The position numbers and the translations under genes were made by a program. A stretch of 34,926 nucleotides of DNA from a virus: IMG/VR virus record IMGVR_UViG_3300047560_002009, positions 1 to 34,926 of that record, one strand, 5' to 3'. This document shows, in pieces, positions 12,201 through 34,330 of the stretch; the first letter of the stretch is position 1, and each line of letters opens with the position of its first letter. Under the pieces are notes generated by a model. It was not told the DNA's origin and did not search any database. It saw only the letters and a program-made list of their open reading frames with translations.

Positions 12201-14842
12201 CTTTTGACGTAAACAAAGTTAACGTAACTGGTGGTTCAGGCGGATTCTCAACAACTGGTGTAGCAAGTTTCAATACTACACAATTTGCTGTTGGTTTAGG
12301 TGATACATTGGCAGCAGGTGCTGTTCAAGTTAAAGCTGGCGTCATTGATGCTGGAACACTACAAACAAGAAACCTTGCTTACGTATTAGATTCAGCTAAC
12401 CATACAACACAACCTGTTAGTGTAGGCGGAACTGGTTTAGTAACATATACAACTGGTGATATGCTGTATGCGTCTGCTACAACTACATTGAATAAACTTA
12501 CTATTGGTGTAGCTGGAACAGTAATGACTAGTTCAGGAAGTGCTCCACAGTGGAGCTCAGGCCTAACGGTTGCTGAAGATGTGTCTATTACAGGCGCAGA
12601 TTTAACAACAACGTCAACTGCTCAAACTATGGTTTTCAATACTAATACAAAATCTGTTAGTATTGGTGGCGCGGCAACAAGCATAGCTATTGGTTCTAAT
12701 ACAGCTACAGAAGCGTTTACATCAAACGTTAAGAGTTATACAACAGGTGGTGCATCTTCTATCACAGTTACAGCTAACCTTGGTTTAGGCGCAACTATTA
12801 GTACAGTAGCTCGTTCTTCTAATACAGCAACAGTAGTAACAACAGTTAACCACGGATTAACAACAGGTGATACTGTAACTATCGTATGTTTATCTGACGC
12901 CAGTTACAATACTGTAGGTTCTTCAGTCACAGTCAGCGACGCAACAACCTTTACATATTCAAATGCTGGTTCAAACATTGGAACAGCAGCTGGTACTGGA
13001 ACAGTATATATTGGCGCAGTAGGTTTGGCTTTAGGAACAACCACAGCTACTTCAGATACTTGGTTAGCTTTCTCGTCTAGCCCAGTAACAGCAGGCGTTA
13101 GAGCAGGTATGTTGGTACAAGGTAGTTCATACATACCAGCAAACACCGTAGTAACTGGTTTAGATGGAAATAGAGTATACCTCAGTCAAGCAGTTACAGG
13201 TATTATTGCTGGCGCAACTCCTATCGCATTTACTGATACTTGTACAAGTATGGGAATCAAAACAGGTGACCAAGTAACTATTGCTACTTCTGGTATTACA
13301 AACGTAGATGGTACTTGGCCTGTAACAACAGCAGGCGCAAATTCGATAACATTTGCGTTTAATATAACTACAGCGGCTACAGCTAATAATACTGCTCGTG
13401 CTGGTACTATTGTTAAAAATAGTACATTGCTATTGAAAAATAGAAACGTTACATTTGGTAGCAGTGAAGCTAGCGGAACTCCAGTTGGCGCAACATTAAA
13501 AGGCGAAAACGGTGTTGGTACAAATATTGCCGGCGCTTCGTTAACAATACAAGGTGGTTTAGCATCGGGTTCAGGAACTAACGGAAGCATTATTTTCCGA
13601 ACAGGTACTACTGGTAGTTCTGGTACTACACAAGCTACCTCACAAGAACGCATGACTATTGCGTCAAGCAGTTCGTCAACTACTTTAGATTTGACAACTA
13701 CTAAAACAACAGCTAACGTGTTTAACACAACTGCTACAACAGTTAGTGCGTTTGGTGTTGCGGCTACGTTAAACATTGCTAACACAGCAAGTGCTACAAC
13801 AACAGGCGGCACTATTAACATTGGTACAAACGGTGGCGGCGCTCAGGTTGTAACATTAGGTTCTAGCACACGCGGTGCACTGGTACAAGGTACAACAACA
13901 TTTACAGTATCAGGTACAGCAGCCGGAGCAGGAACTTACACTGGATTAAGTCATAATTCTTCTGGTACAGCTCCGTTAGGTTCAGGCGGCACGTTCAACG
14001 TTACAACAACAGGTGCTGGAACTTATTCAACTGTAGCAACTATAACGATAGCGACTGGCGGCACAAGTTACTATGTTGGCCAAACTCTTACTATTCTTGG
14101 AACAAGTTTAGGCGGCGCAACTCCAACAAACGATTTAACATTGGTTGTAGCAACAGCCGTTAACTCAAATAATACGTTAGCTATTAACTCTACTGCTACC
14201 GGCACAACTAACATCACTACTCCAGTTACAACTGGTACAGGTAATATCTTTACAGGAATTACAGGAACAACAAGAATTGGCGCTAGCGGAACAATTCAAT
14301 TAGGTATCAGTGCTAGTGCGACAACTACAGTTCAGGTTGGCGGCGCAATTACAGGTAACACCCTCAAAGTAGCAGGCACAACTACGGGAACTATCAATTT
14401 AACAACTGATGTAACTTCGGGTACAGCAAATATCTTTACCAGCGTTACTGGAACAGTTAACATTGGAGCTTTAACTAGTACATCGTCTGTTGGTACATTG
14501 GCATTAAATTCTCAGAATTATAACAGCTCTGCCGAAACAGCTGGTATTACAACAGCTACAGTAGTCAGCAGTTTTGCTATTGCTACATATAGAAGTGCCA
14601 AGTATATTTTACAAGTTTCTTGTACAGCAGGTACTGACAGCGGCGCATATCAAGTAAGCGAAGTTTTAGTAATCCATAACGGATCAACAGCCCAAATGGT
14701 TGACTACGGTGTGGTAAAAACAGGAGCAAGTTTGGTAGTGTTCACTGCGGCAGTTAACGGTGCTAACTTAGAACTAACAGCAACACCTACAGCAGGTGAT
14801 ACAATTAAAGTAAGGGTAGTGAGAACGTTAAACACTATCTAA
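6284..14842 (+). CDS. Giant modular tail fibre/adhesin protein 2 (2852 aa)
   Basis: The start at 6284 is supported by AGGA seven nt upstream. Residues 1-50 (MASTIKHKRSSVSGKVPQ, then GELALN and a K-I-Y-M-K strand) match the N-terminal virion-attachment type seen on many phage fibres. A beta-helix-like region and two CxRD[IV] helical cassettes (nt ~7690 and ~8134) are shared with the upstream protein, as is a module ending DFKVGNF...ITVDTLDVLRLG. The middle (nt ~8690-13360) holds several beta modules of the type xxHG[FL]xxGDxV. TATTV/VNIG repeats occur near nt 13720-14470. The last ~110 residues form a compact C-terminal domain with AKYILQV, YQVSEVLVIHNG and a KVRVVRTL end, as seen at the ends of other phage fibres. 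Function as a receptor-binding or fibre protein is inferred from family resemblance and neighbours. Confidence 0.85.
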   Translation: MASTIKHKRSSVSGKVPQPGDLAAGELALNTADAKIYMKNDADTVVDITASIYAQDTNVTVSDTGSNGTITFTADGTQVGSMVSNQISLTQDTVIENAKNIKFKELGSNGSNYVSINAPDSLSASYTLRLPTATGTVNQVIKTDGAGNLDWGDVDTFGSNRIYVSAVKGDDANDGITAPVLTIKRGLQLASALVYDSNGIPNGTRINLIVSAGDYYIDNPVIIPDNVTVKGDSLRSVNIRPMNAGRDLLRVRNSTYFGEVTFRDGLNDGVPSYTFAYAVSFDDPSDEATDRDGYTNLPTTKPIITQSPYIQNCTLLSFLGASGVLVDGNLVTTPNDPFNQIEAENPVVGPAPSQGKSMVANAFTMISFGGTGWRVINDAYVQLVSCFQIFMLNGTYTQSGGYCSITNSATNFGLYALRASGYSPNAFEFDKGYIGSTGSSGSVQNITAFGWTRVNGPVEQFICRFYEPLSYDVVTCKRDVGYIIDAIGYDLMFGGNFRTISAGRSYLRSQASVVTTTQQSATITAFNYLKTELIAQDNADTAASTFIINNIDTINSIIVGGLNAVPETTLVDPDGYDVGYFNGRRLLVANTQFIKDEVSAYMAFTYNSIWSLLSTADKAKCTRDIGYIIEALTYDLTYGGNLETIVAARAYYNQLTNTLVEPGGQKTALLAVLARIKSVINSVVQGNLVLVTTGNTTAQDRSGTGGSAGAASFTDARIQEIYDYVNSITNTITEILPDTTWVNSSLTNIFSNFQSNKATTETAVTNYISEQGVGADLTSTFKNTLPTYLEVDFDASTDVDPTSDTFTIVAHGFINQDVVTYDADSNLQIGGLYSGDVFYVKRLTADTFQLYYDTSLTRLVDVTFVGSGTQYFRKQDFEITVNTVTDTHNTFQNVVLASGSGSGYSFTAGDEVVGTNSVGGGGYPCKGFVYSYDSTTRTLVLCINTVTIGLTETRNLFDAGTTISLVDGASVSYTVSSVTTRTDLYGATFDIASTLTGGQLTNTTGMPGKRIWFHRPSITNSSGHTWEYAGSGTDYNALPQNGGKGIPAYEQVAENGGQVYTSGTNELGDFKVGNFITAYNRTGNVTFTNKITVDTLDVLRLGVGGVTVESISTDIEMGNSEPGGPKDSRISTQLAVYTYTQDHLGNVLDKNVSTNAIPGSLVQLNSNGQINSDLIPTSRSFTNFSSGGLDSRLYQVDDVPANDMLAGDIATETFQQQELTLSDPITANVGTAIFQTTGNTATTAITSGSNSFTVTHSGAVTVPRNSYVLLEGVTPSTYNGVWLVNRSSAGSFEVFSSINPGVATVQGTIYYGGASGRLKSSYTSATSIIVGSVGTSFNTAFTNGVNTLIIGTDRTPSDTNGTVTVSTAPAASSSTGNYFLRTSVTGQYLILDASMNPTYTNGSISKAFRYSNNAYVTTTTAHNFTSGNAVKIDAGTASFDGTQYVTVTSTTEFYYSNTASDSSTSASTTATATLAGASSATTMTGSVTSAALTGTITLGDFVFDVAGTIPKGSKITAVNMSVNPRTFTITFPSASTVASTSSAELKFFTPATETGTVRSVVTAADSLSQGEFTEYRSGVVTVVNNFTGLTGGSGYTNGTYYRVPLTSVTGTGVCALADITVATGAVTNVDLVFGGAGYAINNILSASTADIGAGAGFQITVSAVEKRVYLNLTGGQTFVATSGAPDFVEHNASVVATFTATTTLTATFDARSTGAGGGVDTVTNRITTSSAHGFGDGDPVQYNPGTDPALGGLITNNVYYVKVINSTTVELYSNYNLGSIMIISSSTGSGHTLTRKAVDIVNNTFSVPAHGFVTGDAFRILGPDLPYESSVQIAQNTFWFVGSVTTNSFTVHALRADALSSIAGIVLGEGNLTATGSGTITVVKASIKVTGTVNTSSQARDNWNSLVTTNIDASNIISGIVSTSRLATGSANSYSFLRGDSTWATAVQSAQLASNSALTLTGNGASPFYGALTFDVNKVNVTGGSGGFSTTGVASFNTTQFAVGLGDTLAAGAVQVKAGVIDAGTLQTRNLAYVLDSANHTTQPVSVGGTGLVTYTTGDMLYASATTTLNKLTIGVAGTVMTSSGSAPQWSSGLTVAEDVSITGADLTTTSTAQTMVFNTNTKSVSIGGAATSIAIGSNTATEAFTSNVKSYTTGGASSITVTANLGLGATISTVARSSNTATVVTTVNHGLTTGDTVTIVCLSDASYNTVGSSVTVSDATTFTYSNAGSNIGTAAGTGTVYIGAVGLALGTTTATSDTWLAFSSSPVTAGVRAGMLVQGSSYIPANTVVTGLDGNRVYLSQAVTGIIAGATPIAFTDTCTSMGIKTGDQVTIATSGITNVDGTWPVTTAGANSITFAFNITTAATANNTARAGTIVKNSTLLLKNRNVTFGSSEASGTPVGATLKGENGVGTNIAGASLTIQGGLASGSGTNGSIIFRTGTTGSSGTTQATSQERMTIASSSSSTTLDLTTTKTTANVFNTTATTVSAFGVAATLNIANTASATTTGGTINIGTNGGGAQVVTLGSSTRGALVQGTTTFTVSGTAAGAGTYTGLSHNSSGTAPLGSGGTFNVTTTGAGTYSTVATITIATGGTSYYVGQTLTILGTSLGGATPTNDLTLVVATAVNSNNTLAINSTATGTTNITTPVTTGTGNIFTGITGTTRIGASGTIQLGISASATTTVQVGGAITGNTLKVAGTTTGTINLTTDVTSGTANIFTSVTGTVNIGALTSTSSVGTLALNSQNYNSSAETAGITTATVVSSFAIATYRSAKYILQVSCTAGTDSGAYQVSEVLVIHNGSTAQMVDYGVVKTGASLVVFTAAVNGANLELTATPTAGDTIKVRVVRTLNTI

Positions 14843-14848
14843 TAAATA
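14841..14848 (+). promoter_or_regulatory. Late promoter box AATAAATA before fibre gene 3
   Basis: AATAAATA matches the T4-type late -10 element (TATAAATA; NATAAATA in marine T4-like phages). It overlaps the stop codon of fibre gene 2 and lies 27 nt before the next ATG, leaving room for a leader with a GGAGAG ribosome site. The match is seen; promoter activity is inferred. Confidence 0.6.
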
Positions 14849-24230: not shown

Positions 24231-25803
24231 CTTCAAAGCTCTTGACCCATGCGACGCCGTTCCATAAGTATTGTGTGCTTGTGTATTCATTTGTCAAATA
24301 TAATAATCTATCAGCACTTTCTTTGGCACTGAAAACAATAGTCCATGCTGAGCCATTCCATTCAATGATGTCATTGGCACCAGCAATAAAATCCGATCCG
24401 TCATCGTTCTTCCACGCATCTGGACCATCTTCATTCATATATAGCTCATATGTAATTTCACTACCAGCAGGAGCGATTTGGTCCAACACAATAAAATAAT
24501 TACCAGTATTTGGATCGTTTGGAATACGTAAACTACCACTTCCAACTTCCACACCGTCTACAAATACTCTGTGGTCATTTACTTTTCTATGTAATGTATT
24601 TGTATTGATACGTTGTATTCTGCTATCATTGACAAATGTATCAATGATACCGCCGCCTATATTGTCTAAAATTAGATATCTAGTGCCTGTACTTGGAGCA
24701 GGTAAACCGTGTCCTGGTCCTGTTTTATGCGGGTCAATAACAGCATCAAATGTGCCTTGACTAGTTCTATAATTGCTAGGAATTAAACTATTAAGTGGAT
24801 ATGTATCTTCGTCCCAATTTACAATTAACATTGTATTGTCTAAAGGATTCACTGTTACATAGCCTACAACTACACTACCATTAGGCTGGCGCAAATAAAT
24901 TTTACTTAGGCCAGGAGTATACCCTTTTCCATTAGGATATTGATCTATTAACATAGACCAACTTAGATACCCGCCTGCGTTATTTTCGTGGCTTACTAAT
25001 CTAATTTTACCTTCAGAAACTTCAATATTAAAGTTACCGATGGAAATACCTTGATGAGTTATAGGATCTGTTGGGCTAGTTGTTCCTGTTAACGGATCAA
25101 CGCCTAACCCGTCAATATATCCAGGATTAGTTGTTCCAACACCGCCTAAAATATTAGCAATAATATTTGTAACAACACCTAAACGTTTAACTTTAACCGG
25201 CGGGCTAATCCAAATAGGAGTTTCTAAACCAATGCTAGCAACATCGATATCAGTATTAGTTCCTGTAGGTATTGAGCGACTTGTAAAAGTTACATCTGTT
25301 ATATCTACAACACTTAAACTGGTCCAGTCGATATAATTGTCTGTAGTTTGTATTTCTAAACTAGGGTTGAACAGCATTAATATTTGCTCGAGTATTTGTA
25401 ACTTTTGATCGGTGTTTGCTGACCAAATGTCTGCCTTAAGTGTTAATTTATAAGGAGTAGGCATTAGTCTTTCAACAGTATAATTGTCACCTTGTTCACT
25501 AGTATATTGTCCAAATTCATCAATAGCACGTTCGCGTATGTGTAACTTTCCTACATAACTGCTATCAGCTAATCTGCCTCTATCTAATTCTAAATCTGTA
25601 ATGTAGATAGCAATTCTAGGAGGTCCTAATACTTTGTTTTCGCTATTGTTATTAATAATTGTGGCTGCTTGTCGGTCCATATCGCCATACATAACTGGCA
25701 CACGAACTAGTGTACCGTCAGCATACTTTACCACAAAGTTACTTAATAGTCTAATAACTTGTGTTAAGTATCGGCGTATCTGTGCGTCGTAAAAAAATTC
25801 CAT
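24193..25803 (-). CDS. 15: gp15 tail completion / sheath stabiliser protein (536 aa)
   Basis: The N-terminus (FFYDAQIRRYLTQVIRLLSNF, then VRVPVMYG) aligns by eye with T4 gp15 (FYNSSFRRY...LFSN...IRVPITYA). Further gp15-like segments include PPRIAIYITDLELD, PTPYKLTLKADIWS, QILEQILMLFNP and PIWISPPVKV. In T4 gp15 caps the tail tube and sheath and joins the tail to the neck. The gp15-like part covers about residues 1-215. The remainder, to 536 aa (T4 protein 272 aa), is an extension with two W/Y-x-W-N-G-x-A-W modules near the C-terminus (~res. 475 and ~513). The start overlaps the gp14 stop (TAATG), with AAGGG ten nt upstream, indicating coupled translation. Confidence 0.9.
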   Translation of the reverse strand: MEFFYDAQIRRYLTQVIRLLSNFVVKYADGTLVRVPVMYGDMDRQAATIINNNSENKVLGPPRIAIYITDLELDRGRLADSSYVGKLHIRERAIDEFGQYTSEQGDNYTVERLMPTPYKLTLKADIWSANTDQKLQILEQILMLFNPSLEIQTTDNYIDWTSLSVVDITDVTFTSRSIPTGTNTDIDVASIGLETPIWISPPVKVKRLGVVTNIIANILGGVGTTNPGYIDGLGVDPLTGTTSPTDPITHQGISIGNFNIEVSEGKIRLVSHENNAGGYLSWSMLIDQYPNGKGYTPGLSKIYLRQPNGSVVVGYVTVNPLDNTMLIVNWDEDTYPLNSLIPSNYRTSQGTFDAVIDPHKTGPGHGLPAPSTGTRYLILDNIGGGIIDTFVNDSRIQRINTNTLHRKVNDHRVFVDGVEVGSGSLRIPNDPNTGNYFIVLDQIAPAGSEITYELYMNEDGPDAWKNDDGSDFIAGANDIIEWNGSAWTIVFSAKESADRLLYLTNEYTSTQYLWNGVAWVKSFEGDYQRGDWYFEP

Positions 25804-27236
25804 TATAAATCAGCCCTTGGTCTTAATGCTTTGCTTAATGATTGACGTTCTTCTGTACTACTACGGTATAATTTATAGTTAACTTGTTCGCCAGGATTAA
25901 TAGGATCAGCAAAAGTAATTACAGCAAATCCGCCTGGACCTTCTGTTACACTAGCTGGCATTACACCTTCTCCCATTCTAGCACTAGCATACATAGTATC
26001 AATATATGTTATGTTTGTTGTAATTGACGGTGTCAATACTTGTGCGGTAATAAAATCTTCTTTCAATAAACCAACACCTGTACGATTCTTATTATTAATG
26101 AATGTACCTTTTTGTGTTTGACGGTCACGTGCCAATGCTGGATCTGTATTAGTAGGATCATTATTGGTCATTGTCATACGAACACCATCTTCGTATTTTA
26201 CCCAACGTGTTCCATCATACTTAAACAATCTAGTTGGCATAAAGTCTGTACGCAAAAAGAAATCATCTTTAATAGGCGCATTAGGGAACTGAATACCGTG
26301 TCCAAAAGACGCACCGTTGTCAGGTACTCCATCACCTAACAAGTATCCTGTATAACCTGTACGTTGTGGACGATTTGCTGTTCTACTAGCATCTAGTTGA
26401 GCATTGGAAGCATTAATATCTGTTTCGTCTGCGGTAATAATGCTAGGCTTACCTGTTGTAGGATCAACAGCAAGTGTAAAGAATTGTTGTGTTTCGTAGC
26501 CGCTTAGTTTAGCATCATCTTCTGCTTGACGAAGTACAGCGTCATTAATTTCTAATTCTCTTGCGTGTGTGCTTAACAAATCTCGTATTGTTTGATTTGT
26601 TAAATTACCTTGAGCATCGCGAATTGGATCGCCATTGCTGTCCACGGCAGGTTGGTCAAAAATATCTTTGTATTGCTGACTATCAACAATTTTGGTTAAT
26701 TTTAATCTGTATAAATGCGGGTACCATGTAGGGCTAAAACCTTCTGCCGCACGACCTACATCGCTAATAACATAGTACTTGGGCAAGCTAACATCAAAGT
26801 CGTTTAGCGCAAATTCGTCTCTTAAATTTGGTACTTCAATAACATCGCCGCTCATAGGTTTGCGTCCAACTGTACGAATAAAATCGTTAATATGTACAGT
26901 CATATAAACTGTATCGTTGTCGATAAACAAACCAAACTGGCTTAGGTTAAAGTCGATGTCTGCTACATTATATACGCCACGTATTTTGTAAATGCTAACA
27001 TCATACTTACGATCGCGGTTTTCAAGAAATAACAAATCTTGTATATTTGTAGGGCTTACGCCACCGCTATAATGCGGTTGATCAGCGGTAGCATTTTCAG
27101 GGTCCGGATTTGACGGACCGAGGTATTTGTGTAAGTAAATGTCCGTACCGCCCACGTGAAACATTTCACTGGCAGCACGATCAATAAACTTATAATCGTT
27201 GGTTTTATTGGTATGATAAAGCGATAAACGTGGCAT
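25803..27236 (-). CDS. 14: gp14 neck protein (477 aa)
   Basis: The start at 27236 (MPRLSLYHTN) is chosen over the longer frame to 27308, which would overlap gp13 and begins with unrelated sequence. Segments typical of the family are EMFHVGGTDIYLHKYLG, LFLENRDRKYDVSIYKIRG, FIDNDTVYMTVHINDF and the GDVIEVPNLRDEF turn, matching T4 gp14 in order. The neck protein closes the filled head with gp13 and accepts the tail. T4 gp14 is 256 aa; here the extra C-terminal ~220 aa include FFLRTDFMPTRLFKYDGTRW and end with SLSKALRPRAD, as in marine T4-like phages. No Shine-Dalgarno lies upstream. A CTAAATA late-promoter box stands 7 nt before the ATG. It is the first gene of the gp14-gp15-Nudix unit. Confidence 0.9.
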   Translation of the reverse strand: MPRLSLYHTNKTNDYKFIDRAASEMFHVGGTDIYLHKYLGPSNPDPENATADQPHYSGGVSPTNIQDLLFLENRDRKYDVSIYKIRGVYNVADIDFNLSQFGLFIDNDTVYMTVHINDFIRTVGRKPMSGDVIEVPNLRDEFALNDFDVSLPKYYVISDVGRAAEGFSPTWYPHLYRLKLTKIVDSQQYKDIFDQPAVDSNGDPIRDAQGNLTNQTIRDLLSTHARELEINDAVLRQAEDDAKLSGYETQQFFTLAVDPTTGKPSIITADETDINASNAQLDASRTANRPQRTGYTGYLLGDGVPDNGASFGHGIQFPNAPIKDDFFLRTDFMPTRLFKYDGTRWVKYEDGVRMTMTNNDPTNTDPALARDRQTQKGTFINNKNRTGVGLLKEDFITAQVLTPSITTNITYIDTMYASARMGEGVMPASVTEGPGGFAVITFADPINPGEQVNYKLYRSSTEERQSLSKALRPRADL

Positions 27237-27243
27237 AGTATCA

Positions 27244-27250
27244 TATTTAG
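27244..27250 (-). promoter_or_regulatory. Late promoter box CTAAATA for gp14
   Basis: On the - strand CTAAATA is followed by seven nt and the gp14 ATG. T4 late boxes end near -6, so transcription would begin one or two nt from the start codon. It is one half of a dyad with the gp13 promoter. The next gene upstream on this strand (HNH) starts 1.9 kb away, so gp14 needs its own promoter. Confidence 0.6.
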
Positions 27251-27252
27251 CT

Positions 27253-27260
27253 GATAAATA
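27253..27260 (+). promoter_or_regulatory. Late promoter box GATAAATA for gp13
   Basis: GATAAATA fits the NATAAATA late consensus and is followed by an AGGAGA ribosome site and the gp13 ATG at 27276, giving a conventional short leader. It is separated by two nt from the opposing gp14 box. Confidence 0.65.
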
Positions 27261-27275
27261 CAACAGGAGAGAACA

Positions 27276-28040
27276 ATGTCCAACATAGATACAAAAGCAG
27301 CCAGACAACAGGTTTTCGAGTATGTACGTACCATGCTAGGCGATGGCATGATTGACGTTGAACTCGACCCTCAACATTACGAAATAGCACTAGATCGTGC
27401 TATTAATAAGTTTAGACAACGTAGCAGTCACGCAGTAGAAGAAAGCTACATGTTTTTAGAGCTAAAACAGAACCAAAATGATTACAGATTACCTGACGAA
27501 GTTATCCAAGTCCGTGCTTGCCATCGTAGAACGTTGGGTAGCAGAACTGGAGGAGGAACGGGTTCAAACTTTGAACCGTTCAACTTAGCATATACAAACA
27601 CCTACTTGCTAAACAGCACAATGTTAGGCGGTATTGCTACATATGACATGTTCTCGCAGTATCAAGAAATGGTGGGTCGTATGTTTGGTGCGTTTATTGA
27701 ATTCCAGTGGATTCAACATAGCCATACATTACGCATTTTACAACGTCCTTTCACAGACGGTGAAACTATCATGTTGTACTGCTATAACTACAAACCAGAT
27801 TACGTTCTTATTGATGACTTGTATGCCAAGCAATGGTTTAGAGATTACACACTAGCTAATTGTAAACTGATGCTAGGCGAAGCACGTTCTAAGTTCGCAC
27901 AAATTGCTGGCCCTCAAGGCGGCACACAACTTAACGGCGGAGATTTAAAATCAGCTGGCAAAGAAGAACTTGAAAAATTAGAAAAAGAATTAGAGAATTT
28001 AGTTTCTGGCGGAACGCCAATGACATTTGTTATCGGTTAA
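27276..28040 (+). CDS. 13: gp13 neck protein (254 aa)
   Basis: AGGAGA five nt upstream fixes the start. The sequence carries the gp13 pattern: an N-terminal helix (QQVFEYVRTMLGDGMIDVEL), ALDRAINKFRQRSS, EESYMFLEL, YRLPDEVIQVRACHRR, the central MFSQYQEMVGRM and WIQHSHTLRILQRP, and the FRDYTLANCKLMLGEARSKF helix. T4 gp13 (309 aa) forms the head-proximal neck ring with gp14. The C-terminus has a Lys/Glu-rich helix (EELEKLEKELENL). It lies divergent to gp14, whereas in T4 genes 13, 14 and 15 run in one direction. The next gene begins seven nt after its stop. Confidence 0.92.
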   Translation: MSNIDTKAARQQVFEYVRTMLGDGMIDVELDPQHYEIALDRAINKFRQRSSHAVEESYMFLELKQNQNDYRLPDEVIQVRACHRRTLGSRTGGGTGSNFEPFNLAYTNTYLLNSTMLGGIATYDMFSQYQEMVGRMFGAFIEFQWIQHSHTLRILQRPFTDGETIMLYCYNYKPDYVLIDDLYAKQWFRDYTLANCKLMLGEARSKFAQIAGPQGGTQLNGGDLKSAGKEELEKLEKELENLVSGGTPMTFVIG

Positions 28041-28043
28041 ATA
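28037..28043 (+). promoter_or_regulatory. Possible late promoter box TTAAATA before the 135-aa protein
   Basis: TTAAATA differs by one base from CTAAATA and stands exactly four nt before the ATG at 28048, the same spacing as at 33249 and 29467. It overlaps the gp13 stop. The spacing is the main support; the match is imperfect. Confidence 0.35.
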
Positions 28044-28047
28044 TAAT

Positions 28048-28455
28048 ATGAAAGTTTTTGAAATTATTACAGAAGGCACAAAGACAGGTAATGGCACTAC
28101 AGCCAAGGGCAACATGCAGGCAATGTCTAAAGAACAAAAAGCCGCTATGAAAAATGCCACAACTGTCGCTGGTTTAAATCAATCTACTGGTAGTGCTTAT
28201 ATTGGTTATCGCTATGGTATTGCTTTAGCGGCGGCACCACACTTTCCAGCAGGTGGTGAAGCAGATAACTGGATCGGTGGAGATCCGTTAATTAGTCCTT
28301 ACAGTGACGAAGAATGGGAAATGGTAAAAGCCGCGGCCAAACAAGTTGGTGCTGGCGGTATCAAGAACTGGAGCGGCAACCGCAGTAAAGAAGTTGCTGA
28401 CGTAAACAAAACTAGCACCGTTGCTAAACCAAAACGCAACAAGTACGGTGTTTAA
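28048..28455 (+). CDS. Probable internal head protein with capsid-targeting-like N-terminus (135 aa)
   Basis: The ATG at 28048 (MKVFEIITEG) is preferred over an upstream ATG inside gp13 because it begins with a recognisable peptide. M-K-x-aromatic-...-I-T-E resembles the T4 capsid-targeting sequence of internal proteins (MKTYQEFIAE), and I-T-E followed by Gly fits the (L/I)-x-E cleavage rule of the T4 prohead protease. The rest contains YIGYRYGIALAAAP and a basic C-terminal tail (NWSGNRSKE..., ending KPKRNKYGV), also known from proteins of unknown function in marine T4-like phages. Basic charge fits a DNA-associated packaged protein. No Shine-Dalgarno is visible. Gene identity as a small conserved phage protein is firm; the head-targeting role is inference. 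Confidence 0.75.
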   Translation: MKVFEIITEGTKTGNGTTAKGNMQAMSKEQKAAMKNATTVAGLNQSTGSAYIGYRYGIALAAAPHFPAGGEADNWIGGDPLISPYSDEEWEMVKAAAKQVGAGGIKNWSGNRSKEVADVNKTSTVAKPKRNKYGV

Positions 28456-28465
28456 CCAATCACTA

Positions 28466-28494
28466 TTGACTTAACCGTAAAAAATCTGTAATAT
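28466..28494 (+). promoter_or_regulatory. Sigma70-type promoter for the dNMP kinase
   Basis: TTGACT (28466-28471) and TAATAT (28489-28494) are separated by exactly 17 nt, and a second TATA-like hexamer overlaps downstream. The GGGAGA site and ATG follow at 28507-28519. This is a host-sigma70 promoter pattern, unlike the NATAAATA boxes of neighbouring genes. Confidence 0.7.
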
Positions 28495-28516
28495 ATAGTA
28501 TGTCCTGGGAGATACT

Positions 28517-29197
28517 ATGATTATTGGGTTTGTTGGATTTATTGGGTCGGGCAAAGATACTGCCGCAGACTATCTAGTTAACTTTCACGGCTTTCGCAGA
28601 GATTCATTTGCTAACACATTAAAAGACGCGGTTTCAGCTGTATTTGGTTGGGACCGCGTTCTGCTGGAAGGTCGTACTAAAGAGGCTCGCGAATGGCGAG
28701 AGCAAGTAGATGAGTGGTGGGCAGAGCGTTTAGGTATGCCGCAATTAACTCCTCGCTGGGTTTTACAACGCTGGGGAACAGAAGTTTGCCGTAACGGTTT
28801 TCACGATGATATTTGGATTGCCAGTGTTGAAAACAAAATGCGTAAAACTAAAGACAACATTGTTATCAGCGATGTTCGTTTTCCTAACGAAATTAAAGCA
28901 ATTAAAAACGCAGGCGGAAAAGTAATCCGTGTAGTGCGTGGTCCGGATCCAGAATGGTATCAAGACGCTTGGAATATGAATCAAGGCCCTACTAATATGA
29001 GCTGGGCTATTAGTAAAATGCGTATGGAAAAGCTAGGTATTCATGCTAGCGAAACAGCTTGGATTGGAAAAGGCATCGACATTGACGTAGACAATAACGG
29101 CTCAATTGATGACTTGTATGAACAAATTAGAAATCTGGTAGAAGACCGCCACGCTTCCACTGAAAACCTTCTTTATGAAGGACTCGAGAGCAGTTAG
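28517..29197 (+). CDS. 1: Deoxynucleoside monophosphate kinase, T4 gp1-like (226 aa)
   Basis: Residues 7-16 (GFIGSGKDTA) are the Walker A loop of dNMP kinases. WVLQRWGTEVCRNGFHDDIW and ISDVRFPNEIKAIKNAGGKVIRVVR match the lid and nucleotide-handling segments, and VDNNGSIDDLYEQI matches the end of T4 gp1. T4 gp1 (241 aa) phosphorylates dTMP, dGMP and hydroxymethyl-dCMP to diphosphates for phage DNA synthesis. The insert with WREQVDEWWAERLGMP precedes the conserved block, and an HASE motif (res. ~176) is present. GGGAGA supports the start. Its own sigma70-type promoter implies early expression although it stands among late genes. Its last 71 nt overlap the convergent HNH-like gene. Confidence 0.9.
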   Translation: MIIGFVGFIGSGKDTAADYLVNFHGFRRDSFANTLKDAVSAVFGWDRVLLEGRTKEAREWREQVDEWWAERLGMPQLTPRWVLQRWGTEVCRNGFHDDIWIASVENKMRKTKDNIVISDVRFPNEIKAIKNAGGKVIRVVRGPDPEWYQDAWNMNQGPTNMSWAISKMRMEKLGIHASETAWIGKGIDIDVDNNGSIDDLYEQIRNLVEDRHASTENLLYEGLESS

Positions 29198-29462
29198 CAC
29201 AAATTGTTTTTAAATTACTTGGACGGCTATTGTTTAAGTTACCGTCCAAGTGATAAACATTAAACTGCTCTACGTGCTTACTTTTAAAACCACACTTATC
29301 GCATGTGGTTTTTATCCTATAACCGTCCTTATACCACTTAGGTATATAGGCACCGGTACCTCCTTTTAAACAAGACTCACACTTACTCCTATAGTAAGTT
29401 CTTCCGTTCTTAACATAGTTAATAGCGGCTAATCTATATCCACAAACACATAAAGGGCGCAT
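29127..29462 (-). CDS. HNH-endonuclease-like zinc protein (111 aa)
   Basis: CVC, CESC, CDKC and CANC knuckles suggest two zinc sites. The segment VYHLDGNLNNSRPSNLKTIC (res. ~69-88) has the H-x-D-G-N-x2-N-x4-N-L-x3-C form of HNH/zinc-loop nucleases. Similar proteins occur as free-standing genes in marine T4-like phages, and some are probably homing endonucleases. It lies alone on the - strand between the + strand kinase and sheath genes and overlaps the kinase by 71 nt in antisense. AATAAATA stands four nt before its ATG with no ribosome site between. The usual final HNH histidine pair is not clear, so it could be catalytically dead or a zinc-binding regulator. Confidence 0.7.
   Translation of the reverse strand: MRPLCVCGYRLAAINYVKNGRTYYRSKCESCLKGGTGAYIPKWYKDGYRIKTTCDKCGFKSKHVEQFNVYHLDGNLNNSRPSNLKTICANCSRVLHKEGFQWKRGGLLPDF
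29214..29254. repeat. Inverted repeat (stem-loop) in the HNH-like gene
   Basis: ACTTGGACGG (29217-29226) and its perfect complement CCGTCCAAGT (29242-29251) flank a 15-nt loop, and three further pairs (one G-T) extend the stem to 13 bp. It starts 17 nt after the kinase stop and encodes the HLDGN...RPSN segment on the other strand. No U-run follows on either strand. Confidence 0.65.
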
Positions 29463-29466
29463 TTTG

Positions 29467-29474
29467 TATTTATT
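29467..29474 (-). promoter_or_regulatory. Late promoter box AATAAATA for the HNH-like gene
   Basis: Read on the - strand, AATAAATA is followed by CAAA and the ATG of the HNH-like gene. The only purine-rich site (AGGAAAGG) lies upstream of the box and too far from the ATG to act as a ribosome site. Confidence 0.5.
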
Positions 29475-29530
29475 CGCACCTTTCCTACACCTTTTTTTGG
29501 GTGTATAAGCCCTGCCTTTTGGAAGAATCC

Positions 29531-29538
29531 AATAAATA
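29531..29538 (+). promoter_or_regulatory. Late promoter box AATAAATA for gp18
   Basis: AATAAATA lies 32 nt before the sheath ATG and is followed by AGGAG eight nt from the start. This is the conventional late-promoter arrangement, and would serve gp18 and gp19 up to the terminator at 33217. Confidence 0.65.
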
Positions 29539-29570
29539 CATTAGAACAGAATACCTTAGGAGATTCCAAC

Positions 29571-32567
29571 ATGGCCCAATTAAGTTCACCTGGTGTAGCA
29601 GTATCAGTTATAGATGAAAGTTTCTATACACCCGCTGCTCCGGGCACAGTCCCTTTAATTATCGTTGCCAGCGCCGAGAATAAACAAAACGGCAGTGGCA
29701 CTGGCACCGCTCCAGGTACATTGAAAGCCAATGCTGGCCAAGTGTATCTATTAACAAGTCAGAAAGATCTTGCTGACACTTTCGGTGACCCAGTATTTAA
29801 AACAGATGCTAACAACAACCCAGTTCACGCTGGCGAGCAAAACGAATATGGTCTACAAGCCGCATATAGCTTGTTAGGCGTAAGTAATCGTGCTTTTGTT
29901 GTTCGCGCAGATTTAGATTTAGATCAACTAACAGCACAATCAGAAGCACCATCAGCTGAACCAAACAATGGTACATACTGGTTAGATACAGCAAACTCAC
30001 ATTGGGGTATCTTTGAATGGAACGGTGCTGCCGCAACAACAACAGGCGGACAAACATTTACAAATAAAGTACCTTTAGTAATCACAACAGCTTCACAAGT
30101 TGACTTAGGTACAGGCGGTCCAAAGAGCACAATCGGTAAAAACGGCACATACGCTGTAGTTGCTGTACGTGATACAAGCTACGACGACGCATTACTAACA
30201 ACAAAGCACCCAATGACTTTCTGGTACAGAGATTCTTCAGGAACATGGGTACAGTTAGGTGATACAACTTGGTCCGGAACAGGCCCAGGTGCTAAACAAA
30301 TACAAATCAGCGCACACACTGATGTTCCACAATGGAAAGCAAGTGCGTTGGACGCACCTACAGGTAGCGTATGGATTAAAACAACAGAACCTAACTTAGG
30401 TGCTCGTTGGAGAGTTAAGCGTTACAATGCTACAACTCAAGCATTTGACCAAGTCAATGCTCCAATCTATAGCGATAACGTAGAAGCATTATACAAGTTA
30501 GACAAAGCTGGCGGTGGTGTAAATCTTGCTGCCGGAACATTGTACGTTAAGCCTACTCAAAATCCTGGCGTAGATTTTGCTATCTATCGCAGAAAGAGCG
30601 CGGCTCCAACAGTAATTAAATCTGTTAAAATTACAGAAACAACTATCAGCGGAACTTCTTCTTACGCATTTGAAATGTCTGAAACATTGAAGAATTCAGG
30701 TTCTTATGACAGTGCTGTAACAGTTAGTTTCACAGCAACAGGCTCTGTTGACGATGCTGCAGCTTTAGCATCAGCAATCAATGCCGCAGGCTTTACAAAT
30801 ATTGAAGCAAGTGTTGACGCACAAAACCGTGTTGTTATTGAACACAGCTTAGGCGGTGATATCCTTATCAATGATATGGACGGCGGCCTAACACAAGCAG
30901 GTTTTGCAGCTTACGACTTCGATACTAGCACAGGAACTGTTAACCTATACGCAGACAACGGTAACTTAGTTGCCAGCTTATGGGAACCATTAACTTATGT
31001 TTCTAGCGCAGATGCTCCAACAAGTTTAACAGCAGACGGTACATTATGGTACAGTAGCGTTCTAAACGAAGTTGACATCATGATTCATGATGGAAGCACA
31101 TGGGTAGGTTATGCTAACGGCGTAGCAGGCACAGATCCAGCAGGCCCAATCATTAGCGCAACTAAACCAGAAACACAAAGCGACGGTACTACACCTTTAG
31201 CAACAGGCGACCTATGGGTTGACTGGAGTGCTACTGAAGATTTCCCAGCTGTTTACAAATACAACGCTGACTTACAAAAGTGGTTAGTTGTTGATAAGAG
31301 TGACCAAAGCACAGAAGACGGCATGTTATTTGCCGACGCTCGTTGGAATACAAATGGCGTAGATATGGACGCTAGCACAATTGAAGAATTGCTAGTAAGC
31401 GATTTCTTAGATTTTGATGCTCCAGATCCAGCACTATATCCAAAAGGAATGTTGCTATGGAACTTACGTCGTAGCGGATTCAACGTAAAAGAATTCAAAC
31501 GTAACTACATTGACTTGACAGCAGATAACCCACGTTATGGCGATGAGTCTATGGGCGACTACTACCCACACCGTTGGGTAACTAAGAGCGGTAACCAAGA
31601 CGACGGTTCTGGTACATTCGGCCGTAAAGCACAACGTAAGATTGTTACACAAGCTCTACAAGCACTTGTTAATAGCAACCAAGCAATCCGCGACGAAGAA
31701 AGTCGTGTATTCAACTTAATCGCTTGCCCAGGTTACCCAGAGTTAATTGGCGAAATGATTAGCTTGAACTATGACCGTGGATTAACAGCCTTTGTTGTTG
31801 GTGATACACCTGCTCGTTTACCAAGTGACGCTACAAGTTTACTAGAGTGGGGCTTGAACATGAACTTAGCACTTGAAGATAATGATATCGGTGCTACAAG
31901 TTACGACGAGTACATGGCTATGTTCTATCCATGGGGCTTTACAAGCGACAACTTTGGTAACAACGTTGCTGTTCCTCCAAGCCACTTAATGTTAAGAACT
32001 ATTGCCCTAAACGACCAAGTTGCTTATCCTTGGTTTGCTCCAGCAGGCGTTCGTCGTGGTGGTATTACTAACGCAACAGCAGTCGGTTACATCGATGCTG
32101 AAGGCGAATTCAAATCTGTGGCATTGAACACAGGACAACGCGATACATTGGCTAGCGTTAAGATTAACCCTATTACATTCCTAACAGGAACAGGTTTAGT
32201 CAACTATGGCCAGTATACAAGAGCAAGAGCCGCAAGTTCGTTAGATCGAATCAACGTTGCTCGTTTAGTTGCTTACTTACGTAGACAATTGAACACATTA
32301 GCTAAACCATATATCTTTGAACCTAATGATAAAATCACTAGAGATGAGATTAAAGGTGCCGTAGATAGCTTACTATTAGAACTAGTAGGTCAACGTGCGC
32401 TGTATGATTACATTGTAGTGTGTGATTCAAGTAACAATACACCTTCTAGAATCGACCGCAATGAATTGTATATTGATATTGCTATTGAACCAGTTAAAGC
32501 GGTTGAATTCATTTACATTCCATTGCGCTTAAAGAACACTGGCGAGATAGCCGGGTTAGGCGCTTAA
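29571..32567 (+). CDS. 18: Tail sheath protein gp18 (998 aa)
   Basis: AGGAG eight nt upstream supports the start. Residues 1-115 (LSSPGVAVSVIDESF, PLIIVASAENKQNG, YLLTSQKDLADTFG, AAYSLLGVSNRAFVVRADL) are the sheath N-terminal domain. Residues ~586-998 (NYIDLTADNPRYGDESMGDY, HRWVTKSGNQDDGSGTFGRK, VFNLIACPGYPELIGEMISL, WGFTSDN, VPPSHLMLRTIALND, GGITNATAVGYIDAEGEF, ELYIDIAIEPVKAVEFIYIP) are the conserved C-terminal core. The sheath subunit contracts around the tube. At 998 aa it is much longer than T4 gp18 (659 aa). The extra length is a block at about residues 125-585 with repeated G-x-[LY]-W...[YF]-[DN]-G-x-x-W modules, probably exposed on the sheath surface. It is followed directly by gp19. 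Confidence 0.95.
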   Translation: MAQLSSPGVAVSVIDESFYTPAAPGTVPLIIVASAENKQNGSGTGTAPGTLKANAGQVYLLTSQKDLADTFGDPVFKTDANNNPVHAGEQNEYGLQAAYSLLGVSNRAFVVRADLDLDQLTAQSEAPSAEPNNGTYWLDTANSHWGIFEWNGAAATTTGGQTFTNKVPLVITTASQVDLGTGGPKSTIGKNGTYAVVAVRDTSYDDALLTTKHPMTFWYRDSSGTWVQLGDTTWSGTGPGAKQIQISAHTDVPQWKASALDAPTGSVWIKTTEPNLGARWRVKRYNATTQAFDQVNAPIYSDNVEALYKLDKAGGGVNLAAGTLYVKPTQNPGVDFAIYRRKSAAPTVIKSVKITETTISGTSSYAFEMSETLKNSGSYDSAVTVSFTATGSVDDAAALASAINAAGFTNIEASVDAQNRVVIEHSLGGDILINDMDGGLTQAGFAAYDFDTSTGTVNLYADNGNLVASLWEPLTYVSSADAPTSLTADGTLWYSSVLNEVDIMIHDGSTWVGYANGVAGTDPAGPIISATKPETQSDGTTPLATGDLWVDWSATEDFPAVYKYNADLQKWLVVDKSDQSTEDGMLFADARWNTNGVDMDASTIEELLVSDFLDFDAPDPALYPKGMLLWNLRRSGFNVKEFKRNYIDLTADNPRYGDESMGDYYPHRWVTKSGNQDDGSGTFGRKAQRKIVTQALQALVNSNQAIRDEESRVFNLIACPGYPELIGEMISLNYDRGLTAFVVGDTPARLPSDATSLLEWGLNMNLALEDNDIGATSYDEYMAMFYPWGFTSDNFGNNVAVPPSHLMLRTIALNDQVAYPWFAPAGVRRGGITNATAVGYIDAEGEFKSVALNTGQRDTLASVKINPITFLTGTGLVNYGQYTRARAASSLDRINVARLVAYLRRQLNTLAKPYIFEPNDKITRDEIKGAVDSLLLELVGQRALYDYIVVCDSSNNTPSRIDRNELYIDIAIEPVKAVEFIYIPLRLKNTGEIAGLGA

Positions 32568-32585
32568 TAATTAGGAGAAATTAAA

Positions 32586-33203
32586 ATGGCAGTATCAACA
32601 CTATCGAAATTTACAGTACCTTTAGCTAGCGATCAAAGCGCTAGCGCTCAAGGTCTGTTGATGCCAAAACTAAAATACCGTTTTAGAGTAAGTTTAGAAA
32701 ACTTTGGTATTACAACTCCAACTACTGTTTTAACTAAACAAGTTGTTGACGTTACTCGTCCTAGCGTAACATTTGATAACATTTTATTAGATGTTTACAA
32801 TAGCCGTGTTAACATTCACGGTAAGCACACATGGGCAGATATGACCTTGAACTTACGTGATGACGCAACAGGTGAAGTTACTAAGTTAGTTGGCGAGCAA
32901 CTACAGAAGCAATTTGACTTTTATGAGCAAGCAAGTGCCGCTTCTGGTATTGATTACAAGTTTGTAACACGTATTGAAATGTTAGACGGTGGTAACGGAA
33001 CTAACGCACCTAACGTTCTTGAAACATGGGAATGTTTTGGTTGTTATGTTTTAACAGCTAACTATGGCAATGCCGCTTACAACGCTAACGAAGCAGCCAC
33101 AGTCGCACTTACAATTAAGTACGATAACGCAATCCAGAGCCCACAGGGTACTGGTGTTGGTACAGTGGTTGGACGTACACTTGGTTCTATGACTACAGGT
33201 TAA
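32586..33203 (+). CDS. 19: Tail tube protein gp19 (205 aa)
   Basis: AGGAG eight nt upstream supports the start. The gp19 pattern is present: MPKLKYRFRVSLENFG, LTKQVVDVTRPSVTFDNILL, NIHGKHTWADMTLNLRDD, KQFDFYEQASAASGIDYKF and ETWECFGCYVLTANYGNAAY. T4 gp19 (163 aa) forms the rigid tail tube; this one has about 40 extra residues, at both ends and in loops. It is 18 nt downstream of gp18, forming a sheath-tube pair, and is the last gene before a terminator. Confidence 0.93.
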   Translation: MAVSTLSKFTVPLASDQSASAQGLLMPKLKYRFRVSLENFGITTPTTVLTKQVVDVTRPSVTFDNILLDVYNSRVNIHGKHTWADMTLNLRDDATGEVTKLVGEQLQKQFDFYEQASAASGIDYKFVTRIEMLDGGNGTNAPNVLETWECFGCYVLTANYGNAAYNANEAATVALTIKYDNAIQSPQGTGVGTVVGRTLGSMTTG

Positions 33204-33216
33204 TAGTAATCAAAAC

Positions 33217-33244
33217 AAAAAGGCTCTTTCGAGGGCCTTTTTTT
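33217..33244 (+). terminator. Rho-independent terminator after gp19
   Basis: A 10-bp stem (AAAAAGGCTC with GGGCCTTTTT, one T-G pair) with a TTTCGA loop is followed by a T-run through 33244, 14 nt after the gp19 stop. It separates the gp18-gp19 unit from the following genes. Confidence 0.9.
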
Positions 33245-33248
33245 ACGA

Positions 33249-33255
33249 CTAAATA
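33249..33255 (+). promoter_or_regulatory. Late promoter box CTAAATA for the tube-like gene
   Basis: CTAAATA lies five nt after the terminator T-run and four nt before the ATG at 33260. It is identical to the box upstream of gp14, and no ribosome site lies between. Confidence 0.6.
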
Positions 33256-33259
33256 ATGT

Positions 33260-34330
33260 ATGTCCAGTTACGCACTACGTCAATTTGTATCAGGGGCCTT
33301 ACACCCTAAAGGTAATGTCGGCGATTTCCAACACGCCGCTCGTCTATTTGTTGATAGCGATTTAAGACTTGCCCCTAAACGCAAGTTTAGTTTCCACGTC
33401 GTTTTTAACATTAATCCAGGCGCATTAAAAACATTAAACTTTCAGTATCAGCATCAAACTGAAATTAATATGTTGGTTAAGACTTGTGAACTTCCTAAGT
33501 TTACACTTAAGACAGAAACACTTAACCAATATAACAGGAAGAAAGTTGTCAATTTAGGTATCGATTACAATCCTATCAATATTAGGTTCCACGATGATAA
33601 CTTAGGTGTCGTTGGACAGCTTTGGCAAAACTATTATAATTATTACTACGCAGACGTTACGGCAGCTAACGTAGTCGGTGGATATAATAGAAATGCGATG
33701 CAAGGCCCAGGATTTTTTAGATCTCGTTATGGCCTTGATAATAACAGCAGTATGCCGTTTTTCACAGATATCACTATCTATCAAATGGCAAAACGTGCTT
33801 GGTATAGTTATAAACTAATTAATCCTGTGATTACAAGTTGGAGTCACGACGCATTAGATTACAGTAGTAGTCAAAGCTCTGAACAAGCTATGACTCTTGC
33901 GTATGAAGCTGTAACTTATAATACAGGATATGTCGTTCCCGGACAAAATCCTCCAGGCTTTGGTGGTCCAGACCACTACGACACCATGCCAAGTCCTATT
34001 AGTCTTGCTGGCGGCGGAACTAAAACATTGTTTGGTCAAGCAGGTGTACTTGCTGGTATCGAAGCAGTATTCGGCGCTGTTGGTTCCGGACAAGCATTTA
34101 GTAGTGTAGGTAATTTCTTAGGAACTGCTATCACAGCTATTAACACATATCAAAATGCCAAAGCATTAACTAACGCAGGTGTTAGAGCAGAAGTTACTAA
34201 CATGGCAGTCAGAGGTTTAACTAGTTTAAGTAGAATTGGTTTAAGTGGTTTATCAAATACAAGTTTCCCTGTAAACAATCCAGTAAATACTACCGTTGCG
34301 ACACAACGGAATATAACAGGAGGACCATAA
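33260..34330 (+). CDS. Conserved structural protein, tail tube-like / possible gp54 baseplate-tube protein (356 aa)
   Basis: The start MSSYALRQFVSGALHPKG is typical of a protein conserved in marine T4-like phages, with HAARLFVD, KRKFSFHVVFNINP, LVKTCELPKFTLKTETLNQYNRKK, DYNPINIRFHDDN and the aromatic-rich LWQNYYNYYYAD. The LVKTCELPKF-LNQYNRKK-IxFHDDN pattern is that of the tube-fold family (gp19, gp54), so it may initiate or cap the tube on the baseplate. Assignment to gp54 specifically is uncertain. Residues ~250-320 are Gly/Ala-rich. It has no Shine-Dalgarno and its promoter is inferred to be only four nt upstream. The codons at its end (Thr-Gly-Gly-Pro) supply the AGGAGG site of the next gene. 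Confidence 0.75.
   Translation: MSSYALRQFVSGALHPKGNVGDFQHAARLFVDSDLRLAPKRKFSFHVVFNINPGALKTLNFQYQHQTEINMLVKTCELPKFTLKTETLNQYNRKKVVNLGIDYNPINIRFHDDNLGVVGQLWQNYYNYYYADVTAANVVGGYNRNAMQGPGFFRSRYGLDNNSSMPFFTDITIYQMAKRAWYSYKLINPVITSWSHDALDYSSSQSSEQAMTLAYEAVTYNTGYVVPGQNPPGFGGPDHYDTMPSPISLAGGGTKTLFGQAGVLAGIEAVFGAVGSGQAFSSVGNFLGTAITAINTYQNAKALTNAGVRAEVTNMAVRGLTSLSRIGLSGLSNTSFPVNNPVNTTVATQRNITGGP

Follow-up and report, generated by a model that had tools for sequence, protein, structure and literature searches.

Late promoter boxes set against the start codon suggest leaderless mRNAs in a lineage of T4-like jumbo phages

How is translation begun on a late gene whose promoter box almost touches its start codon? 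The question is raised by IMG/VR record IMGVR_UViG_3300047560_002009, a 34,926-base fragment analysed in its entirety (hereafter the window), which covers the structural-gene region of a T4-like jumbo phage and in which phrog matches identify a sheath, two tube genes and gp13- and gp14-like neck genes. The T4 late promoter, TATAAATA, lies at -13 to -6, with +1 at box+6, counted from the last base of the box (PMC2988020), in agreement with the premise of an earlier sequence-only reading of this DNA that such boxes end at about -6; the cyanophage late box is NATAAATA (PMC2984593). That reading had proposed leaderless late mRNAs for four genes with a box 4-7 nt before the ATG and no Shine-Dalgarno (SD) sequence. 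For three of them, the gp14-like neck gene, an HNH-like gene and a tube-like gene, comparison with relatives makes it very likely that a T4-type late promoter starts transcription at the first base of the ATG or 1-3 nt upstream of it, yielding leaderless mRNAs; the fourth, at 28048, does not hold up. The original scope also undershot, as the layout appears to be lineage-wide and gene-specific and to include sigma-70 early promoters, with gp55 late and sigma-70 early promoters each setting the ATG at their own predicted +1.

Late boxes and their distance from the ATG

Read directly from the sequence, the four boxes, their gaps and their start codons lie where they had been described. On the minus strand, the gp14-like neck/virion structural gene (25803..27236, 477 aa, beginning MPRLSLY; phrog_11591, E 3e-89) is separated from its TAAATA (27244..27249) by 7 nt, TGATACT, and with a predicted start at 27239 (A, box+5) its mRNA would carry a 3-nt leader, ACU. 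The HNH-like/zinc-cluster gene, also on the minus strand (29127..29462, 111 aa; phrog_2255, E 3e-7), follows its TAAATA (29467..29472) after a 4-nt gap, CAAA. On the plus strand, the tube-like paralog (33260..34330, 356 aa; phrog_4542, E 3e-16) lies 4 nt, ATGT, from its TAAATA (33250..33255), so that the predicted start, 33260, is the A of the ATG; for both of these genes the predicted leader is 0 nt. The fourth TAAATA (28038..28043, plus strand) is likewise followed after 4 nt, TAAT, by a 135-aa gene without assigned function (28048..28455, plus strand, beginning MKVFEIITEG). None of the four has an SD at normal spacing, with the qualification that AAGG motifs occur some 15-25 nt upstream of the HNH-like gene; these lie on the far side of its box and hence outside the predicted late transcript. 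A tandem AAAAGG..AAAAGG just upstream of this box (29473-29510, minus strand) is conserved in most relatives, and may be a homing site or the leader of a different transcript.

Genes with a more distant box serve as leadered controls, and every one of them has a GGAG-type site, in line with the clear ribosome sites that had been noted. These are the 14876 gene (box 14843..14848, plus strand, gap 27), the SD-led gp13-like head-tail adaptor gene (27276..28040, plus strand; phrog_211, E 2e-35), which has a box at 27255..27260 (plus strand, gap 15) and AGGAG at 27266..27270, and the SD-led tail sheath gene (29571..32567, plus strand; phrog_10581, E 1e-228), which has a box at 29533..29538 (plus strand, gap 32) and AGGAG at 29558..29562. 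The T4-type late box [ACGT]TAAATA was found upstream of the gp13, gp14, sheath, tube-like and 14876 genes, and the base at box+5 is A in 7/7 intergenic boxes of the window vs 2/7 boxes within genes. TAAATA stands at gap 4-7 before 4 of 19 starts in the window, compared with a mean of 0.11 in shuffled upstream regions, and none of 20,000 draws reached 4. A window this small proves little by itself, and relatives were therefore collected.

Relatives were gathered with gp14, the tube-like gene and the 28048 gene as queries, and whole contigs were then examined. The lineage set for spacing comprises 12 contigs (among them G001, which is L169-L188, and G002, which is L189-L205), and the outgroup consists of T4, Syn9, PA5oct and the first 400 kb of Atu_ph07. 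In-frame ATGs of long open reading frames (ORFs) were tallied at each distance after TAAATA, with no start calling, and 14 permuted hexamers of the same composition provided the control. This genome-wide scan found the 4-7 spacing to be far commoner than in the controls, with 94 starts (37 at gap 4 and 41 at gap 5) against a permuted mean of 8.5. Gaps 0-3 are rarer than expected (6 starts vs 19.7), gaps 8-16 are at chance level (30 vs 24.5), and a second, SD-led hump lies at about 17-35 nt. The outgroup has a single hump at 17-32 and 8/220 starts at gap 4-7, where permuted hexamers predict 10.5; the difference between the lineage and these four phages, which lack the close class, gives a Fisher P of 2e-14 when pooled over related contigs. 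The excess is also seen within single genomes (G001, 15 vs 1.9, P 2e-9; G002, 18 vs 1.3, P 4e-15). Four contigs fetched afterwards peak at gaps 4-5, mostly 5, with 13, 9, 8 and 18 genes, at most two at gaps 0-3 and few at 8-16. Three of these, G013-G015, are relatives in which gp14 is leadered and yet the close class is present, indicating that the class extends beyond the gp14 clade. An unbiased hexamer-by-gap scan ranked TAAATA at gaps 5 and 4 just behind SD motifs.

The empty stretch at gaps 0-3 is what a promoter would require, since a start site beyond the ATG would lose the start codon, and this floor places +1 at box+5 or box+6. Base composition downstream of the box shows A/G enriched at +6 in the outgroup and A at +5/+6 in the lineage.

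The hexamer-by-gap scan also returned, unexpectedly, TTGACA at gap 29; this hexamer corresponds to the -35 element of host-type sigma-70 promoters in which 6 nt separate the -10 from the ATG. When paired hexamers were scanned for, such genes numbered 6 at gap 5, 16 at gap 6 and 6 at gap 7, fell to roughly one per gap from 8 to 11 and showed a further mode near 30; no gap 5-7 peak was found in the outgroup. Starts in this close class are ATG in 28 of 29 cases and TTG in one. Its members, drawn from G001, G002 and other relatives, include a DnaB-like helicase, a primase, an exonuclease and a DnaJ-like protein (N-terminus only), and these early replication genes may constitute a leaderless early class. 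Because sigma-70 transcription starts 6-7 nt after the -10, gaps of 5-7 would again put the start at the A of the ATG. If the mRNAs were not leaderless, it would be difficult to account for two promoter families that differ in spacing and yet each apparently have the ATG at their own +1. A gp55-type late sigma is encoded by G005 (phrog_12791, E 3e-63; phrog_234, E 3e-22), with tblastn matches also in G001-G004; the gp55 gene of one relative, L292, occupies 13206-14054.

Conservation of the layout gene by gene

Counting distinct proteins for each gene, 32 gp14 orthologs lack an SD and carry the box at gap 4-7, 28 are leadered, 21 of the latter with an SD of at least 4 nt, and none is mixed. In the tree of gp14, 34 of the 37 rows in a single starred clade (96) are leaderless, and the label requires at least 4 changes in all vs 23 in shuffles. 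The exceptions within this clade, L101 (gap 18) and L024/L032 (gap 22, with a TTG start), all have AGGAG, and because they are nested inside the leaderless clade they appear to have lost leaderlessness. The neighbouring gp13 box is divergent, back-to-back with that of gp14 and 5 bp from it, and gp13 orthologs have a box at gap 4-7 in 5/60 cases. The two genes share a 39-bp gap (27237-27275), with gp14 predicted leaderless and gp13 SD-led, an arrangement kept in relatives. Back-to-back divergent boxes were also considered as a special device and rejected, being overall no commoner than convergent controls.

A box at gap 4-7 is found in 50/53 distinct relatives of the HNH-like gene and in none of the sheath (0/64) or tube1 (0/58) relatives that served as controls. 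Among tube-like orthologs, 33 have the close box and no SD, and 25 have no close box, 21 of which have an SD. The terminator that had been placed just upstream of 33260 is present as an intrinsic hairpin and T run after the first tube gene (33217..33242, plus strand; fold -12.9 kcal/mol, z -3.3), and terminators also lie upstream of tube-like orthologs. Between the terminator and the tube-like late box, many relatives (L084-L093, and G001 near 124346) have a perfect palindrome, ACTACGTAGT, or its TACGTAG core; it was rejected as a general promoter element, as it is absent from the window and shows no enrichment elsewhere in the genomes. The large terminase gene has a box at gap 4-5 directly after a terminator in G001, G002, G003, G005, G008 and G009, and gp23 retains AAGGAG-type sites.

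An SD of at least 4 nt precedes 10% of the close class vs 73% of the 17-35 class. At gap 4-5 the start codons divide into 78 ATG, 2 GTG and 1 TTG, and at gap 17-30 into 162 ATG, 8 GTG and 13 TTG. Leaderless initiation in E. coli requires AUG (PMC9031893), and the ATG bias fits such a need, the difference between the classes being modest.

Predicted mechanism and competing explanations

In the proposed mechanism, host polymerase carrying gp55 would open the TAAATA box and start at box+5 or box+6. At gaps of 4-5 the mRNA would then begin with AUG or one base earlier, and gp14, with its gap of 7, would begin ACU-AUG. Ribosomes, probably 70S, would engage the 5'-terminal AUG instead of pairing with an SD. 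The layout may set a low output and save space, as where gp13 and gp14 share their gap. The low-output role is suggested because in E. coli a leaderless mRNA is usually a weak template and the leaderless genes are expected to be low-copy. It would suit low-copy products (terminase, neck, tube-like, HNH-like), with sheath, tube and capsid retaining SD-led leaders. A further and tentative idea, which we hold as possible and somewhat doubtful, is that promoter placement runs two initiation modes in parallel, early replication and low-copy late genes leaderless and bulk virion genes SD-led, so that a shifting state of ribosomes and initiation factors would set protein ratios.

Boxes, gaps, their conservation, the bimodal spacing, the gp55 gene and the AUG preference are observed, and other accounts of them have been weighed. 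The boxes could be promoters whose short mRNAs are a by-product, with protein made mainly from longer read-in transcripts by weak SD-independent initiation in an A/U-rich leader. Adjacent A/U-rich sequence can indeed aid initiation without an SD, and genes inside late clusters may receive upstream transcription, but the neighbours of gp14 and of the HNH-like gene are divergent, and the tube-like gene has a terminator upstream of it, both in the window and in orthologs. Read-in also predicts neither the floor at gap 4 nor the separate sigma-70 peak at 5-7, and we regard it as unlikely. It is highly improbable that the start codons are mis-assigned and that true starts lie downstream with ribosome sites of their own; mechanical ORF calls cannot prove starts, but MPRLSLY opens gp14 from residue 1 whether the ortholog is leadered or leaderless, and the tube-like and terminase proteins are also conserved from their first residues. 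Scarcely credible is that the spacing is a by-product of short A+T-rich intergenic gaps and that TAAATA near an ATG is no promoter. TAAATA is A+T-rich and half of the 28038 copy is a stop codon, but permuted hexamers of equal composition fall far short of the observed count at gap 4-7, the four outgroup phages, with similar or lower G+C, show no peak, and the box persists over strongly diverged orthologs.

Several points weigh against the leaderless interpretation. The absence of an SD, offered earlier as a sign of leaderlessness, does not discriminate: an SD occurs in -25..-4 of 15/94 close-class starts and of 12/87 geometry-matched permuted-hexamer starts, and SD absence was rejected as independent evidence because it is no more than the geometry forces. 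Gap 4 requires initiation one base before the canonical T4 +1. Searches for the gp45 clamp and the gp33 co-activator gave no tblastn match in relatives and no PF02916 match, with a silent control that marks these searches as too weak to show absence. The contigs are mutually related, which leaves their counts non-independent and the pooled P values overstated. No close cultured relatives were found, the top gp14 match being 43% (Atu_ph07) and the top tube-like match 29%, and the closest cultured phages, Atu_ph07, Phosso, PA5oct and the 121Q/CBB group, are distant. One of the four original genes, 28048, was rejected as a member, its layout not being conserved. Finally, the 5' ends are predicted from box position and the case rests on sequence comparison, from which we infer promoter activity of the boxes, the exact start sites and leaderless translation.

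For 28048, the TAA of the box is the gp13 stop codon and the box is missing in relatives, so this TAAATA is probably not a promoter. Termination-reinitiation after gp13 is the likely account: the gp13 stop lies 7 nt before the 28048 ATG and is overlapped by the box, the ortholog in L164 has its ATG directly after the gp13 stop and no box, and that in L163 has an SD-like GGAAAGG in front. Set against this, only seven relatives of the gene were found, and its box resembles true boxes in having A at box+5. Genes with a box at 4-7 nt, including the window's 28048-28455, often start MKIxEIIxE, resembling T4 capsid-targeting sequences (15/94 vs 39/1172 genes without a box, for a pattern picked post hoc), and such proteins may be packaged and injected.

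Relation to known systems

Leaderless mRNAs and T4-type late promoters are each known, and our limited search found no report of the two combined: none of leaderless T4-type late mRNAs turned up in the open-access literature, most subscription journals lying outside its scope. Compared with T4 late promoters (gp55/gp33/gp45), the core box and its predicted position relative to the transcription start are the same and a gp55 homolog is present in relatives; in T4 and Syn9, however, most boxes stand 17-32 nt upstream of the ATG with an intervening SD, and there is no 4-5 nt class. Leaderless mRNAs in phages are textbook curiosities, with lambda cI as the example. Like the cI mRNA from PRM and other leaderless mRNAs (PMC9031893), the genes described here have a -10 directly before the ATG, a predicted 5'-terminal AUG and no SD, but cI is a single gene, whereas dozens per genome, in two promoter classes and conserved by gene, are predicted for this lineage. 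The '-10 adjacent to ORF' leaderless genes of Deinococcus-Thermus (PMC12340547) likewise form a genome-wide class in which the -10 motif stands a few bp upstream of the ORF; they are bacterial and use the housekeeping sigma, unlike this phage lineage, which encodes a late sigma itself and has SD-led genes alongside. If our interpretation is correct, a widespread uncultured phage lineage routinely goes leaderless, gene by gene, early and late, beside SD-led genes. It would supply natural pairs of leaderless and SD-led orthologs for probing the purpose of leaderless initiation, and transcription starts could be read from sequence, the gap floor marking +1. In addition, gene callers and SD-based start prediction would misjudge such genes. 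The Thermus phage phiYS40 reportedly has a leaderless temporal class, with promoters that are not T4-type and a host rich in leaderless mRNAs.

As a clue to the host, gp14 led to no bacterial genomes with related contigs, and terminase matches fall in metagenome-assembled genomes (MAGs) of conflicting phyla, which are probably misbinned. Large contigs of the group, L309 (PBPT01000016, 335 kb), L310 and L313, are binned in MAGs labelled Neomarinimicrobiota, Rickettsiales and others, and L309 and L310 resemble copies of each other.

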